Below, one piece after another: positions 1 to 39,060 of a stretch of DNA of 41,659 nucleotides. The stretch comes from an uncultured Candidatus Melainabacteria bacterium (GTDB lineage: Bacteria; Cyanobacteriota; Vampirovibrionia; Gastranaerophilales; Gastranaerophilaceae), in the NCBI GenBank assembly GCA_947090755.1, contig CAMUPF010000015.1, positions 1 to 41,659 on the forward strand, in the 5' to 3' direction. A model generated the notes under the pieces. It made no database searches, was not told the origin of the DNA, and saw only the letters and a list, made by a program, of their open reading frames with translations. Position numbers and translations under genes: made by a program. Positions within the stretch are counted from its first letter, which is position 1; each line of letters opens with the position of its first letter.

Positions 1-11
1 CCCCCCCCCCC
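1..11. repeat. C homopolymer (11 bases seen) at the window edge, beside prepilin copy 1
   Basis: The window opens with 11 consecutive C, immediately upstream of the conserved prepilin N-terminus of copy 1; its full length is unknown because it touches the edge. In the copy 1 frame it reads as a short proline run. Copies 2 and 3 carry a run of 12 or 11 G at the corresponding place on their coding strand; here the coding strand carries C, so this leader is not a simple duplicate of theirs. Confidence 0.8.
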
Positions 12-966
12 TCTCTTAACCGGCTTCACAATGGCGGAAATATTGTTGTCGTTGACAATAATCGGCGTAGTTGCAGCCATAACTTTACCGTCATTGACCG
101 GCAATATTAACGAAAGAACTTGGAACACACAACGAAAAGCACTTTATGCAAGATTTTCTCAAGGTTTGGCTTTAATGCCATCTTTAAGCGGATATGGAAC
201 TTATCAGCTTGCTGACGAAGCAACATCGACAAGCGCCGTCGACACAGCCGCTGAAACTTTTGTTACTGAAGGTTTATCTAAAGTTATTAAAATTAACAAC
301 ATTTGTGACCACGAGCACCTAGAAGATTGCGGTATCGTTGCTTCTTACACAAATATGGTCGGAAGTGTCAATTCTTGGCCGACTAAGCTGTCTGAACTAA
401 ATAGTATGTTTACAGGTACTTTTAGCAATGCTACGGGCAGTTACACAAATCCCCAAAAAGATATAGACACCAGGGCCGCCGCGTTTGAAACTCAAAACGG
501 AGAATCTATCGCGGTTTATTATAATCCCCAGTGTCAAAGCGATATGCAAGAAACTGCTACGCATATTATTCAACCCAAAATGTGTGCTAACTTTATTTAT
601 GATTTAAACGGTAATAAAGGCCCAAATACCGTTGGTAAAGATATTGGTTTTATTACGGCGCTGTATCCTTCTGATTCTGTTGTCGTTGCGCCAGTACCGA
701 CGCAACAGAATTTAACCAATACACACACCCAAACTCAAGCTACAGAAGCTTGTACAAGGATGGATTCCGAACTTAGAGTGCCAAATAAACATGAATTAGC
801 AGCGATGTTTTACAACAAGGATTTAATTGGTGGTTTATCAGGCAGTGCATATTGGTCAAATACAATCTTTTCACCGGATAAAGCTTGGGGTATAGATTTC
901 AATATTGGAAATATGGGCCCTATTGCACGAGATAATGGACGTTGGATACGCTGCGTCAAAAGATAA
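1..966 (+). CDS. Type IV prepilin-like protein with C-terminal Lcl_C/DUF1566-like domain, copy 1 (5' end missing)
   Basis: Surface or periplasmic fibre subunit of the type IV pilin/type II secretion pseudopilin class. The frame is open from base 1. The first ATG at 31 lies inside the conserved class III signal (G, then FTMAE with Glu at +5), so the true start is upstream of the window. A hydrophobic helix (EILLSLTIIGVVAAITLPSL) follows. The mature part carries six cysteines, a Ca-site-like DLNGNKGPNTVGKDIGF stretch and a C-terminal domain with PNKHELAAMFYNKDLIGG, YWSN and a final IRCVKR, as in Lcl_C/DUF1566 proteins. Paralogues lie at 12948, 38035 and 41523. The last ~26 residues align without gaps to the paralogues but differ at most positions. 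The exact function (adhesive minor pilin or pseudopilin) is inference. Confidence 0.85.
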   Translation, partial: PPPPLLTGFTMAEILLSLTIIGVVAAITLPSLTGNINERTWNTQRKALYARFSQGLALMPSLSGYGTYQLADEATSTSAVDTAAETFVTEGLSKVIKINNICDHEHLEDCGIVASYTNMVGSVNSWPTKLSELNSMFTGTFSNATGSYTNPQKDIDTRAAAFETQNGESIAVYYNPQCQSDMQETATHIIQPKMCANFIYDLNGNKGPNTVGKDIGFITALYPSDSVVVAPVPTQQNLTNTHTQTQATEACTRMDSELRVPNKHELAAMFYNKDLIGGLSGSAYWSNTIFSPDKAWGIDFNIGNMGPIARDNGRWIRCVKR

Positions 967-2171: not shown

Positions 2172-2749
2172 AAGTATTCAATAATTTTTTTTAGTGCGTT
2201 TGCGCGGTGGGAAATAGTGTTTTTTTCAATGTCTGACATTTGCGCAAGTGTGATTTTTTCAGGGTTGTTTTCATCAGGAATAAATATCGGGTCAAATCCA
2301 AAACCGTTGGTACCCGCGCGATTTAATGCGATTTCACCGTGGCACTCACCAAGTTCTACGGTAAGGATTTTGCCGTTTTCATCCAGTAAAGTCATTGCAC
2401 AGACAAATTTTGCGCGGCGATTGGTTTTGCTCTTCATTTCACCGAGTAATTTTTCGATTTTTTCGTCCTGAGTGTCAGCGTAACGTGCTGAGTGTAGCCC
2501 CGGGCGTCCGTCAAGCGCTTCCACACAAAGACCGGAATCGTCTGCAAGTGTCATCATGCCGGTTAATTTGTTGGCTTCGCGTGCTTTGATTAAAGAATTC
2601 GCCTCAAAAGTGGTGCCGTTTTCATCAGGGTCGAAAGGTTTTGGCGGGGTTGAAAATTCAATAAAATTCGCATCGCCTGTGACAAGTTCTGTAATCTCTC
2701 TTAATTCTTCTAATTTATGTGCATTTCCTGTTGCAAATGTTATTTTCAT
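2156..2749 (-). CDS. rdgB: XTP/dITP diphosphatase (RdgB/HAM1 family)
   Basis: House-cleaning enzyme that hydrolyses ITP, dITP and XTP to the monophosphates so that deaminated purines are not incorporated into DNA or RNA. The 197-residue product shows the family hallmarks: the N-terminal TFATGNAHKLEEL, the DDSGLCVEALDGRPG loop with substrate and metal residues, GFGFDPIF, and the terminal SHRANAL. It has a strong SD (GAGGTGAT directly before the ATG). It is the last gene of a trxA-uppS-rdgB unit and ends in the bidirectional terminator. Confidence 0.95.
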   Translation of the reverse strand: MKITFATGNAHKLEELREITELVTGDANFIEFSTPPKPFDPDENGTTFEANSLIKAREANKLTGMMTLADDSGLCVEALDGRPGLHSARYADTQDEKIEKLLGEMKSKTNRRAKFVCAMTLLDENGKILTVELGECHGEIALNRAGTNGFGFDPIFIPDENNPEKITLAQMSDIEKNTISHRANALKKIIEYLKSHA

Positions 2750-2802
2750 ATCACCTCAAATCTTTCGTGACCGTAAGCCAACAAGCCAAATATGGATGTC
2801 GC

Positions 2803-3522
2803 TCAGCGACCATAACGTCTTTGTCTATGTTCAAATTCCGTAATCGCCTCAGCGAGTTCTTCTTTCCCGAATTCAGGCCAAAACTTTTGCACTACAAGGA
2901 TTTCAGAATACGCAGCCTGCCAGAGAAGAAAATTAGAAATCCTTTTCTCTCCGCCGGTTCTAATTAGCAAATCGGGGTCTGGAATCCTTGCCGTGTAAAG
3001 GTTTTCAGTGATTAAGTCTTCTGTAATTTCTTTTTTGCCGCTGTCCACTATTTTTTGAAGTGCGTGAACGATTTCGGCGCGCGCACCGTAGTTGAACGCG
3101 ATTTGTAAATTGACACCCGTGTTATTTTGGGTGACTTCTACCGCGTTATTTAAAATTTCCTGCAATTTCGGGCTTAACTTTGTAGTGTCACCGATAAAGC
3201 TTATAACCACATTGTTTTCGTGCATTTCTGCAAGCTGGTTTTTAAGCGTTTCGCCCAACAAGTTCATCAAAAATTCGACTTCTTCGGGCTTACGGTTCCA
3301 ATTTTCGGTTGAAAACGCGTAAACTGTCAGGTATTTCACGCCAAAATCATCGCATGCGCGCATTGTCGCTTTTAATGCGTCAACGCCTTTTTTATGCCCG
3401 ACCATTGAAGGCAGGTTGCGCTCCTTTGCCCAGCGGCGGTTTCCGTCCATTATGACCGCAATATGTTTTAATCCGGTGGATTTTACCACCTCTTTTATTT
3501 TTTCATCTTCCAGCGTTAACAT
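2803..3522 (-). CDS. uppS: Isoprenyl transferase / undecaprenyl diphosphate synthase
   Basis: Cis-prenyltransferase that extends farnesyl diphosphate with isopentenyl units to undecaprenyl diphosphate, the lipid carrier for peptidoglycan and O-antigen. Visible motifs are the catalytic IMDGNRRWA near residues 24-32, GHKKGVDAL, YAFSTENWNR, and the IRTGGEKRISNFLLWQ block that binds the homoallylic substrate. The length of 239 residues is typical. It follows trxA by 3 bases, so the two are cotranscribed. A small GTCGCT/AGCGAC palindrome overlaps its stop codon. Confidence 0.96.
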   Translation of the reverse strand: MLTLEDEKIKEVVKSTGLKHIAVIMDGNRRWAKERNLPSMVGHKKGVDALKATMRACDDFGVKYLTVYAFSTENWNRKPEEVEFLMNLLGETLKNQLAEMHENNVVISFIGDTTKLSPKLQEILNNAVEVTQNNTGVNLQIAFNYGARAEIVHALQKIVDSGKKEITEDLITENLYTARIPDPDLLIRTGGEKRISNFLLWQAAYSEILVVQKFWPEFGKEELAEAITEFEHRQRRYGR

Positions 3523-12918: not shown

Positions 12919-12940
12919 AAAAAGCCCGCCATCGGCGGGC
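12919..12940 (-). terminator. Terminator of prepilin copy 2
   Basis: On the minus strand GCCCGCC pairs with GGCGGGC around a 3-base loop and is followed by TTTTTAA. It starts 8 bases after the stop of copy 2. Confidence 0.85.
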
Positions 12941-12947
12941 AAAATTA

Positions 12948-14108
12948 TCATCGTTTTATACAGCGTACGTTGAGTGGGTAGGTCTTTGGATCCGGCCCGC
13001 GGACACCCGTATGGGAAACCAGGTGCAGCGCAGTCCCGGATTCGCCGGAAGAAACTACTGAGCCGGACCAGAAATCACCGGACGGAATACCAATAAGGTC
13101 TTTGTTGTAGAACATAGATGAGAGTTCGTCTATGTTAGGAAGTCTTGATTCAGCATCCATACTTGTGCATGCTTCACCAGCTTCTGTTTGCTTTTTTTGC
13201 CCGCTAACATTTCGGGTTAATGGTACCGGAGCAACGACAACGGGGTCACTGGAGTATAACGCAGAGATAAATCCGATGTCTTTACCAACAGTGTTCGGGC
13301 CCTTGTTTCCGTTCAAGTCATAGATGAAATTAGCACACATTTTAGGCTGTGAGTAATGCCAGCCTGTTTCTTCCATATCACTCTGACAATTCGGGTTGTA
13401 ATAAACGGCTACGGATTCCCCGTTTTGTGTTTCAAAAGCGGCAGCAAAAGTATCAATGTCTTTTTGGGGATTTTGATAGTTCTCTCCACCAGCTGCTGAA
13501 CCATTGCCGTAAGAGCTGGTGAACACAATGTTTAATTCAGACAATTTAGTTGGCCAAGAGTTCATACTGCCAGCCAAATTTGTATAAGAAGTAACAATTC
13601 CGCAGTCTTCTAAATGCTCGTGGTCACAAATGTTGTTAATTTTAATAACTTTAGATAAACCTTCAGTAACAAAAGTTTCAGCGGCTGTGTCGACGGCGCT
13701 TGTAGATGTTGCTTCGTCTGCAAGCTGGTAAGTTCCGTAACCACCTAATGACGGCATTAAAGCCAAACCTTGAGAAAATCTTGCATAAAGCGCTTTTCTC
13801 TGTGTATTCCAAGTTCTTTCGTTAATATTACCGGTCAAACTAGGCAATGTTATTGCGGCGACAACACCAATAATCGTTAATGACAGCAAAATTTCGGCCA
13901 TGGTAAAGGCGCAATGCTGGTTCTTCCGCCTGTCAAATCTTAGCTCAATTGCTTTGCAATTGGCAGATTTGTGCGCTCCTTTCACTCTCGTTCCAGTCGC
14001 AACGGCGGTGACATAATGCTCGCCTGCTTGCCCTGCTGACCGCAGGTCAACACCGCGAGCACCGGCTGACGCAGTCTTGCCCCCCCCCCCCTCAGCGGAA
14101 ATGCCCAT
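12948..14108 (-). CDS. Type IV prepilin-like protein with Lcl_C/DUF1566-like domain, copy 2 (leader frame out of phase)
   Basis: Paralogue of copies 1, 3 and 4. It has the class III signal core FTMAEILLSLTIIGVVAA, six cysteines, DLNGNKGPNTVGKDIGF, PNIDELSSMFYNKDLIG, FWSGSV and a terminal VRCIKR. The start with a proper SD (GGAGGT, 14145-14150) is the ATG at 14140, giving MKKQILKSRV as in copy 3, but with 12 G in the tract at 14080-14091 that frame leaves the pilin frame and stops at 13982-13984 after 52 residues. The frame shown uses an internal ATG at 14108, which has no SD. Ten or thirteen G would restore the long form. A ~162-base repeat insertion, a multiple of three, separates tract and signal core. 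The gene as sequenced is probably switched off. Confidence 0.8.
   Translation of the reverse strand: MGISAEGGGGKTASAGARGVDLRSAGQAGEHYVTAVATGTRVKGAHKSANCKAIELRFDRRKNQHCAFTMAEILLSLTIIGVVAAITLPSLTGNINERTWNTQRKALYARFSQGLALMPSLGGYGTYQLADEATSTSAVDTAAETFVTEGLSKVIKINNICDHEHLEDCGIVTSYTNLAGSMNSWPTKLSELNIVFTSSYGNGSAAGGENYQNPQKDIDTFAAAFETQNGESVAVYYNPNCQSDMEETGWHYSQPKMCANFIYDLNGNKGPNTVGKDIGFISALYSSDPVVVAPVPLTRNVSGQKKQTEAGEACTSMDAESRLPNIDELSSMFYNKDLIGIPSGDFWSGSVVSSGESGTALHLVSHTGVRGPDPKTYPLNVRCIKR
13908..14079 (-). repeat. Repeat insertion inside the leader of prepilin copy 2 (repeat copy C)
   Basis: Copy 3 has 10 bases between its G tract and the FTM codons; copy 2 has 172. The extra ~162 bases are GC-rich, contain TCAGCAGGGCAAGCAGGCGA as in the other repeat copies, and include a hairpin (AAATCTGCCAATTGC against GCAATTGAGCTAAGATTT). 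The length keeps the reading frame. The limits are set by comparison with copy 3 and are approximate. Confidence 0.65.
14080..14091. repeat. Homopolymer of 12 (G on the coding strand) in the leader of prepilin copy 2
   Basis: Twelve C on the plus strand, read as 12 G in the gene. It lies 49 bases after the SD-linked start, and gain or loss of bases switches the downstream frame. Such tracts are well known as contingency loci in other bacteria. Confidence 0.85.
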
Positions 14109-14144
14109 AAAACACGGCTTTTCAAGATTTGTTTTTTCATTGAT

Positions 14145-14194
14145 ACCTCCAAAATTTATATAATTATATTAAACTATTTTTCAGGGGTTGTCAA
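14145..14194 (-). promoter_or_regulatory. Promoter and SD of prepilin copy 2
   Basis: TTGACA (14189-14194, overlapping the recF stop) and TAATAT (14166-14171) are 17 bp apart, followed by the SD GGAGGT (14145-14150) before ATG 14140. The arrangement is the same as for copy 3. Confidence 0.8.
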
Positions 14195-15626: not shown

Positions 15627-16706
15627 ATGATTATAGAAGATTTATTAGAACAACTTGTAAGAGAAGGGGGTAGTGACCTTCACGTGTCAAGCAACTTATC
15701 CCCTGTTATTCGTGTGGATGGTAAGTTAAAACGTATTGATGTTCCGCCTCTTAGTCCGCAGGATGTTGAAACTTTATTGTTCCCTATGCTTTCTAATGAA
15801 CAACGCCGGAAACTTGAACAGGACTGGGAACTTGACTTTTCTTACGGGATTGAAGGCCTTAGCCGTTTCAGGGTAAACTTCTATAAAGATAAAGGTAATT
15901 ATGCGGCTGCATTCCGTACTATTACATCTACTGTTCCGAGTTTTGAACAACTTGGACTTCCTGAAGTTGTCAAACGTACCGCGAATTCGCCCAGAGGGCT
16001 TGTGCTGGTTACAGGGCCTACCGGTTCCGGTAAATCTACAACACTTGCGGCTATGATTGACCATATTAACCAGACAAAAGCAGAGCACATCCTTACAATC
16101 GAAGACCCTATCGAGTTTGTGCATACGTCCAAGAAAAGTGTTGTTCACCAGCGTGAATTAGGTATGGACACACGTTCGTTTGCTAACGCTCTTAAATCCG
16201 CACTCCGTGAAGACCCTGATATCATTCTGGTCGGTGAGATGCGTGACTTTGAAACAATTTCTCTTGCTCTGACAGCGGCTGAAACAGGTCACTTAGTGTT
16301 CGGTACACTTCACACCTCTTCTGCTTCACAAACCGTTGACCGTATTATCGACGTTTTCCCTGAAGGTCAGCAGCAACAAATTCGTGTACAGATTGCAAAC
16401 TCTCTTGTTGCGATTTTTGCACAAACACTTTTGCCGAAAACGCTTCCGGACGGAACGAAAAAAGGTCGTGTAATGGCTCAGGAAATTCTTATTTCTAACG
16501 GTGCAATCTCCAACCTTATTCGTGAAGGTAAATCCGCTCAGATTTATTCTTCTATCCAGATGGGACAAGGACAGGGCATGCAAACTCTTGAAGCATCACT
16601 TGCGGAACTTTGTAACAAAGGACTTGTTACTGTTGAAGACGCGCTTGCAAAAACTTCAAGACAGGAAGAGTTTAAACGTCTTTTGAAAGAAGCTAAAGAA
16701 AGATAA
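15627..16706 (+). CDS. pilT: Twitching motility ATPase PilT
   Basis: Hexameric ATPase that depolymerises type IV pili and powers retraction, twitching and DNA uptake. In 359 residues one sees the N-terminal GGSDLHVSSNLSPVIRVDG, Walker A GPTGSGKST (about 130-138), the Asp box, Walker B DIILVGEMRD (about 197-206), the His box TGHLVFGTLHTSSA, and the PilT hallmark AISNLIREGKSAQIYSS. It shows that the host has a retractable type IV pilus system, into which the prepilin-like proteins of this window could fit. It is followed by a repeat instead of a standard terminator. Confidence 0.96.
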   Translation: MIIEDLLEQLVREGGSDLHVSSNLSPVIRVDGKLKRIDVPPLSPQDVETLLFPMLSNEQRRKLEQDWELDFSYGIEGLSRFRVNFYKDKGNYAAAFRTITSTVPSFEQLGLPEVVKRTANSPRGLVLVTGPTGSGKSTTLAAMIDHINQTKAEHILTIEDPIEFVHTSKKSVVHQRELGMDTRSFANALKSALREDPDIILVGEMRDFETISLALTAAETGHLVFGTLHTSSASQTVDRIIDVFPEGQQQQIRVQIANSLVAIFAQTLLPKTLPDGTKKGRVMAQEILISNGAISNLIREGKSAQIYSSIQMGQGQGMQTLEASLAELCNKGLVTVEDALAKTSRQEEFKRLLKEAKER

Positions 16707-38034: not shown

Positions 38035-39060
38035 TTAACGTTTCACGCAACGAACGAGGTAGCCAACGGACCGCGGTTCCGGGTCGCGGTGGCCCGTATT
38101 GAAACCCTGGTCCCATGCTGTGCCAGACTCACCAGAAGAAATGACAGAGCCGGACCAAAAGCTACCGGACGCAATACCAATGAGGTCACGGTTGTAGAAC
38201 ATAGCGCTCAGTTCATCCCTGTTTGGAAGTCTGGATTCAGCGTCTAATTTAGTGCATGCTTCACCTGCTTCGGTTTGCTTTTTAGTACCTGAAACATTTT
38301 GAGCCAATGGAACCGGTGCTACTACAATGGGGTCAGAAGGATAGAGCGCTGTAATAAATCCAATATCTTTCCCAACAGTATTCGGCCCTTTGTTACCATT
38401 TAAGTCATAGATAAAATTTGCACACATTTTTGGCTGTGAATAGTGCCAACCTTCACCCATATCAGCTTGGCAATTCGGGTTGTAGTAAACAGCGATAGAT
38501 TCACCGTTTTGAGTTTCGAATGCAGCGGCCTTGGTGTCTATGTTTTTCTGCGGGTTTTGGTAGTTAGTACCGCCGTTAGAACCACCATCGTTCCATGTGC
38601 CGGTAAACATTGAGTTCATTTCGCTTAACTTAGTCGGCCATGTCTTGATACTTCCTGCCAAGTTAGTATAAGAAGTAACAATCCCGCAATCTTGTAGATG
38701 GTCATGGTCGCAAATGTTGTTAATCTTAATAACTTTACTTAACCCTTCTGTAACAAAAGTTTCGGCTGCTGTGTCCTGCGCGCTTGTACCCGCAGTTGCG
38801 TCTGCAAGTTGGTAAGTACCGTAACCACTAAGTGACGGCATTAAAGCCAAACCTTGAGAAAATCTTGCATAAAGTGCTTTTCGCTGCGTGTTCCACGTAC
38901 GCTCGTTAATGTTGCCGGTCAAACTAGGCAAAGTAATCGCTGCGACAACCCCGATGATTGTGAGGGATAATAAAATTTCCGACATTGTGAAGGCAATCTT
39001 ACCCCCCCCCCCTGAGCAGAATGTCCATATTACACGGCTTTTCAGAATTTGTTTTTTCAT
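38035..39060 (-). CDS. Type IV prepilin-like protein with Lcl_C/DUF1566-like domain, copy 3 (leader in frame)
   Basis: 341 residues. The leader MKKQILKSRVIWTFCS continues through the G tract (GGGG in the protein) to KIA and the class III core FTMSEILLSLTIIGVVAA, with Glu at +5. The mature domain has six cysteines, DLNGNKGPNTVGKDIGF, PNRDELSAMFYNRDLIG, FWSGSV and VRCVKR. SD GGAGG lies close to the ATG. With 11 G the frame is intact, so this copy is on. Its promoter sits inside the 3' end of rnhB, and a terminator follows. It is the reference copy for the family in this window; assembly into type IV pili is inferred. Confidence 0.9.
   Translation of the reverse strand: MKKQILKSRVIWTFCSGGGGKIAFTMSEILLSLTIIGVVAAITLPSLTGNINERTWNTQRKALYARFSQGLALMPSLSGYGTYQLADATAGTSAQDTAAETFVTEGLSKVIKINNICDHDHLQDCGIVTSYTNLAGSIKTWPTKLSEMNSMFTGTWNDGGSNGGTNYQNPQKNIDTKAAAFETQNGESIAVYYNPNCQADMGEGWHYSQPKMCANFIYDLNGNKGPNTVGKDIGFITALYPSDPIVVAPVPLAQNVSGTKKQTEAGEACTKLDAESRLPNRDELSAMFYNRDLIGIASGSFWSGSVISSGESGTAWDQGFNTGHRDPEPRSVGYLVRCVKR
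39002..39012. repeat. Homopolymer of 11 (G on the coding strand) in the leader of prepilin copy 3
   Basis: Eleven C on the plus strand, 48 bases after the start codon, coding for four Gly. Gain or loss of one base would break the frame before the signal core. Confidence 0.85.

Follow-up and report, generated by a model that had tools for sequence, protein, structure and literature searches.

In the poly-G contingency loci of Neisseria and Campylobacter, a long G-tract in the 5' part of a gene for a surface protein sets the reading frame by its length, and genes caught in the OFF state keep intact bodies. Pilin diversity in Neisseria also arises at pilE/pilS, where many paralogous copies recombine; those at pilS are silent and have no 5' end. 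In Mycoplasma gallisepticum, dozens of paralogous vlhA surface genes are each placed under a simple repeat, and this GAA repeat acts upstream, on transcription. For Neisseria meningitidis, 115 phase-variable genes with read support have been reported (PMC5084427). Type IV pilus genes are likewise on record for Gastranaerophilales (PMC5877343), and a literature search found no link between Gastranaerophilales and phase variation.

We describe herein a prepilin gene, copy 2, of an uncultured Candidatus Melainabacteria bacterium, a gut cyanobacterial relative. The window is the whole stretch of DNA that was analysed, 41,659 nucleotides of contig CAMUPF010000015.1 (assembly GCA_947090755.1). While copy 2 and its paralogues share with the Neisseria and Campylobacter loci all the features named above, a single family of prepilin paralogues here accounts for about 80-95 tracts, placed in a portion expected to be removed on maturation, the host is not a pathogen, one OFF frame is in strong excess, and the switch is predicted from sequence. 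Unlike pilE/pilS, the genes are complete, scattered and separately started, each with its own switch, and it is the leader that is exchanged; unlike vlhA, a G-tract within the leader determines the reading frame. The mechanism is the one known from Neisseria; its novelty here lies in the lineage that carries it and in its scale within a single family of pilins. We put at about 80% the probability that copy 2, as an intact member of a very large pilin-adhesin repertoire, is kept translationally OFF by poly-G phase variation; the sequence and its frames (Table 1), the paralogues with their intact bodies, the purifying selection on them and the predicted fold carry this reading.

Table 1. Coordinates of copy 2 and of the other pilus-related features in the window (SD, Shine-Dalgarno)
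Feature	Position	Strand	Remark
Copy 2 prepilin gene	12948-14140	-	SD-linked ATG14140 down to body end
Sigma-70-like promoter match TTGACA-17-TAATAT, copy 2	14166..14194	-	10/12 consensus bases
SD sequence GGAGGT, 4 nt ahead of ATG14140	14145..14150	-	
Leader part 1, SD-linked ATG to tract, 49 nt, MKKQILKSRVLWAFPL	14092..14140	-	
G12 tract, proposed length switch of copy 2	14080..14091	-	
Internal SD-less ATG, in the prepilin frame at 12 G	14106..14108	-	from translation
Premature stop met from ATG14140 at 12 G	13982..13984	-	from translation
Dispersed repeat inserted in copy 2 leader, translated as coding	13921..14077	-	
Ala codon ahead of expected prepilin-peptidase cut, A/FTMAEILLSLTIIGVVAA	13908..13910	-	
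Mature pilin body, 319 aa	12951..13907	-	
C-terminal head, C-type-lectin-like fold	12951..13220	-	domain border approximate
Intrinsic-terminator-like hairpin and T run directly after copy 2 stop	12924..12940	-	
Prepilin copy ON, ATG39060, G11 at 39002-39012	38035..39060	-	in frame
Prepilin copy truncated at contig end, leader missing (body 31-966)	1..966	+	
PilT-like type IV pilus ATPase (T2SSE, PF00437)	15627..16706	+	putatively PilT

The plus strand reads exactly 12 C at the tract, a length that is the consensus of a draft assembly. Translation of the minus strand from ATG14140 gives MKKQILKSRVLWAFPLRGGGARLRQ... and ends at the premature stop after 52 residues, just as the initial annotation had described. 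The prepilin frame begins 1 nt past the tract, so that 49+L+1 must be divisible by three and L must be 10, 13 or 16; the first two lengths had already been named. ATG14108, proposed earlier as an SD-less start in frame at 12 G, does open a single frame of 386 aa that ends at 12948, and no SD-like sequence was found upstream of it. The copy started at ATG39060 is in frame at 11 G and copy 2 is not, and the window thus holds one copy ON and one OFF, as had been claimed. The third copy has no readable state, its leader having been lost where the contig ends. At window positions 1-11 stands C11, probably a read-end artefact, in place of the G11-13 that CCTCTCTTAAC follows in the sister genes. Runs of eight G matched 13 times in the window, where 0.08 matches would be expected, which rules out chance or low-complexity noise as the origin of tracts in this 5' coding position.

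Copy 2 is preceded by recF on the same strand and has an SNF2 helicase gene on its other side, and the gene for the PilT-like ATPase adjoins recF. In the three relatives compared (G002, G004 and G006) the SNF2 gene comes after recF with no counterpart of copy 2 between the two, and the recF-prepilin-SNF2 arrangement occurs only in the source genome. A search of viral_contigs found no relative. A prepilin peptidase (Peptidase_A24, PilD-like) is encoded elsewhere in the genome, which therefore holds both the peptidase and the pilus motor expected of a type IV prepilin system.

The cleavage motif of copy 2, A/FTMAEILLSLTIIGVVAA, is that of a prepilin, with Glu5 and a hydrophobic N-terminus, and E5 is invariant in 40 family members. 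The very short Pfam N_methyl model scored 18.9 bits on copy 2, below its cut-off of 21.2 (E=0.0011), and we regard this as a near miss. The predicted structure (mean pLDDT 88.5) has, as in a prepilin, a 47-residue N-terminal helix (residues 3-49) followed by a globular head. Mean column entropy is 0.23 bits over residues 1-60, an almost invariant helix, versus 2.36 over residues 230-319, and it is in the head that family members vary most. Its best fold match was the C-terminal domain of Legionella Lcl (PF07603; PDB 8q4e; E=4.4e-5, TM 0.63 on the target), and further matches included many C-type lectins, as expected of a C-type-lectin fold. Unlike Lcl, the head is borne here on a type IV pilin helix and copy 2 falls under the PF07603 cut-off (13.4 bits vs 34.9); 20 of the 40 family members match PF07603 at E up to 0.01. 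The model is most naturally read as an adhesin borne on a pilus, which would be processed, assembled into the pilus and bind.

Under the preferred reading, ribosomes would begin at ATG14140, pass the 12 G in the wrong frame and halt at 13982, and a slipped-strand change of +1 G (to 13) or -2 G (to 10) would restore the frame of copy 2, presumably within a clone. Prepilin peptidase would then cut off the leader, and, because the tract lies in this removed part, neither its length nor the inserted repeat should alter the mature protein. Promoter and terminator matches suggest that copy 2 carries its own transcription signals. Each cassette would supply a pilin whose lectin-fold head is variable, and all of them together a combinatorial, stochastic repertoire of adhesins; single-G gain and loss probably lets the bacterium reshuffle which sticky pilus tips are made.

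The 1.78 Mb source genome, whose genus probably includes Candidatus Gastranaerophilus phascolarctosicola (93% RecF identity), contains 115 G-tracts of nine or more. In at least 80 of these, all in one pilin-adhesin family, an SD-linked ATG stands 27-50 nt upstream and the prepilin motif FTMAEIL follows the tract. The remaining prepilin-type tracts are mostly at contig ends. Nearly every prepilin gene with a tract has this pairing of SD and ATG. A DNA pattern for FTMAEIL occurs 117 times (reversed control, 0), and about 95 or more similar cassettes are dispersed through the genome. Four or more prepilins are free of tracts; in these a short conventional leader places the SD-linked ATG right before the motif. 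All of the complete prepilin bodies (76/76) are open, and the median dN/dS of OFF-OFF pairs is about 0.16, indicative of purifying selection. OFF is therefore not decay, and a pseudogene origin of the OFF copies was ruled out. The earlier view of copy 2 as the OFF allele of a phase-variable prepilin gains in strength from these data: the layout recurs in about 80 paralogues at varying tract lengths, tract length sets the frame between start and body, and OFF alleles keep an intact, selected frame. Loss of MutS was rejected as the cause of slippage, MutS being present in 7/7 genomes of the genus. Long G-tracts were also seen within or before other genes (L100, L101 with two tracts, L064, L065 and L126), some in frame and some not; this set includes proteins that by eye resemble acyltransferases or acetyltransferases.

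The OFF states of these genes are not a random mix. Among 79 scorable prepilins (a further one, whose leader contains a stop, was excluded), 17 are ON, 57 have one G too many (+1) and five, copy 2 included, are in the third frame (+2). The imbalance of +1 and +2 among OFF genes has p = 3e-12, persists after near-identical junctions are collapsed to 69 distinct ones, and recurs in each length class: the commonest length is 13 in genes that need 12 G to be in frame, 12 in those that need 11, and 11 in those that need 10 or 13. When tract lengths were shuffled among genes, 57 was never reached in 100,000 trials (p below 1e-5), which rules out a single length distribution as the source of the excess. 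Free random switching does not predict such an excess either. Moreover, paralogue pairs with near-identical tract flanks share the tract length in 9/10 cases, a point against the preferred reading; it could stem from recent leader copying, from a low rate of switching or from frame selection. Possible causes of the +1 excess are frame selection, the spread of leaders already +1, or leaky recoding. Tentatively, and with no great confidence, we suggest that most of the roughly 80 pilin-lectin genes are kept one G above the in-frame length, a state of rest or low expression favoured by selection, that loss of a single G turns a gene on, and that leader copying spreads the state. The initial annotation had spoken of independently switching loci. 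With 57 of 79 genes at one G above in-frame, a picture of independent switches and equal OFF frames falls short; the swapping of leaders between paralogues is a further departure from it.

The bias depends on the genome: G006 resembles the source genome (9/12 at +1), G004 is mixed (seven ON, six +1 and two +2), and G002, with 37 prepilins, is mostly ON (18) with balanced OFF frames (nine +1 and ten +2). The same leaders occur at other tract lengths in relatives. Of the six other genus members, five have 87-127 tracts of at least 10 G and G005 lacks such tracts altogether. Counts in the family f1 often run high, reaching 127, while genomes in the other families of the order have 0-3; the feature is common in its own family and nearly absent from sister families. 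Tract-bearing prepilins are also found in a second genus (G009).

Leaders and bodies form a mosaic. The leader of copy 2 is 94-95% identical over 243 nt to leaders on C32 and C22, with bodies at 67-68%, and the nearest bodies, those of L133 (79%) and of the ON copy in the window (76%), have short leaders without the insert. Such mosaicism is general, as almost all of 31 pairs with at least 85% leader identity have bodies near 68%. Since leaders swap between paralogues together with their tracts, tract lengths are partly inherited together. Relatives of the insert in the copy 2 leader lie between genes (before rpsK, rplB and a bioD-like gene, neighbours named from their translations), and the leaders of two other prepilins also contain them. 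An intergenic repeat of about 150 nt, dispersed and also found among ribosomal protein genes, entered prepilin leaders in frame (L005, L015 and L021). Inserts may be tolerable there because the leader is presumably cut off.

Alternatively, ATG14108 might be a working start, with copy 2 expressed at 12 G, perhaps weakly, and the tract setting the level instead of an ON/OFF state. It lies in the prepilin frame at 12 G and could yield some product, which counts against a strict OFF state. Moreover, a paralogue with the same leader (L148; G000:C22, about 2745-3046) has an interrupted tract, GGGGGAGGG, that locks it out of frame from the SD start and in frame from the internal ATG; its ORF of 376 codons is intact, and the matching internal ATG is the first and only one before the motif. 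However, ATG14108 has no SD, ribosomes from ATG14140 traverse it, and of the eight genes in its leader class two have no counterpart of it. Other genes of the class, at 11 G, have neither start in frame, and among the G-tract members the internal ATG is in frame only in copy 2; the other large leader classes contain many members that, at the usual length, offer no start in the corresponding frame. ATG14108 is thus probably incidental, the second, weaker expression state once suggested for it has little in its favour, and we consider its functional use unlikely. We are similarly doubtful of a reading in which polymerase or ribosome slippage on the G-run gives OFF copies some protein and the frame sets the level, +1 being the low-expression state. 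The +1 preference in each of the three length classes, which no single length distribution can give, speaks for it. Nonetheless, G002 has no +1 excess, copy 2 itself is outside the +1 frame, and copied leaders could have spread one state, though the excess survives the collapse of junctions.

The tract length in the assembly might also be wrong or a population average, the true main allele being in frame. The sequence is a draft consensus, a prepilin leader or tract is found no more than about 350 nt from at least 33 of the 106 contig ends, and the C11 at the window start resembles an artefact. On the contrary, copy 2 is mid-contig, and an overcall by one G would put it at 11, likewise out of frame. 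A systematic one-G overcall is further argued against by six tracts within non-prepilin genes, which show no such shift (four in frame and two out; the 14 G of L100 join 225 and 184 codons in frame). A wrong or averaged length that hides an in-frame main allele is, on balance, improbable. Less credible still is that the out-of-frame copies are silent recombination donors for a few expressed genes, in the manner of pilE/pilS. The plain shuffling of leaders and bodies among paralogues speaks for this, but the scored copies have their own SD and start, in place of the missing promoter and 5' end of silent copies, copy 2 has promoter and terminator matches, and a G-tract would be pointless in a donor.

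Several further observations concern the family at large. The leaders of L163, L114, L083 and L093 contain peptides of the HAELVSAS/HPELVSES...SRNKFGMT type, resembling another dispersed repeat translated as coding. In L296, L297, L301, L309 and L312 (from G001 and G003), 63-232 residues separate the tract from the prepilin motif, a very long distance for a prepilin. Finally, L209 and L210, from entries (JAMPIJ) titled Fusobacterium sp. NALB_7963_5, belong to the prepilin family at 60-61% identity, and these entries are probably a mislabelled Gastranaerophilales MAG.
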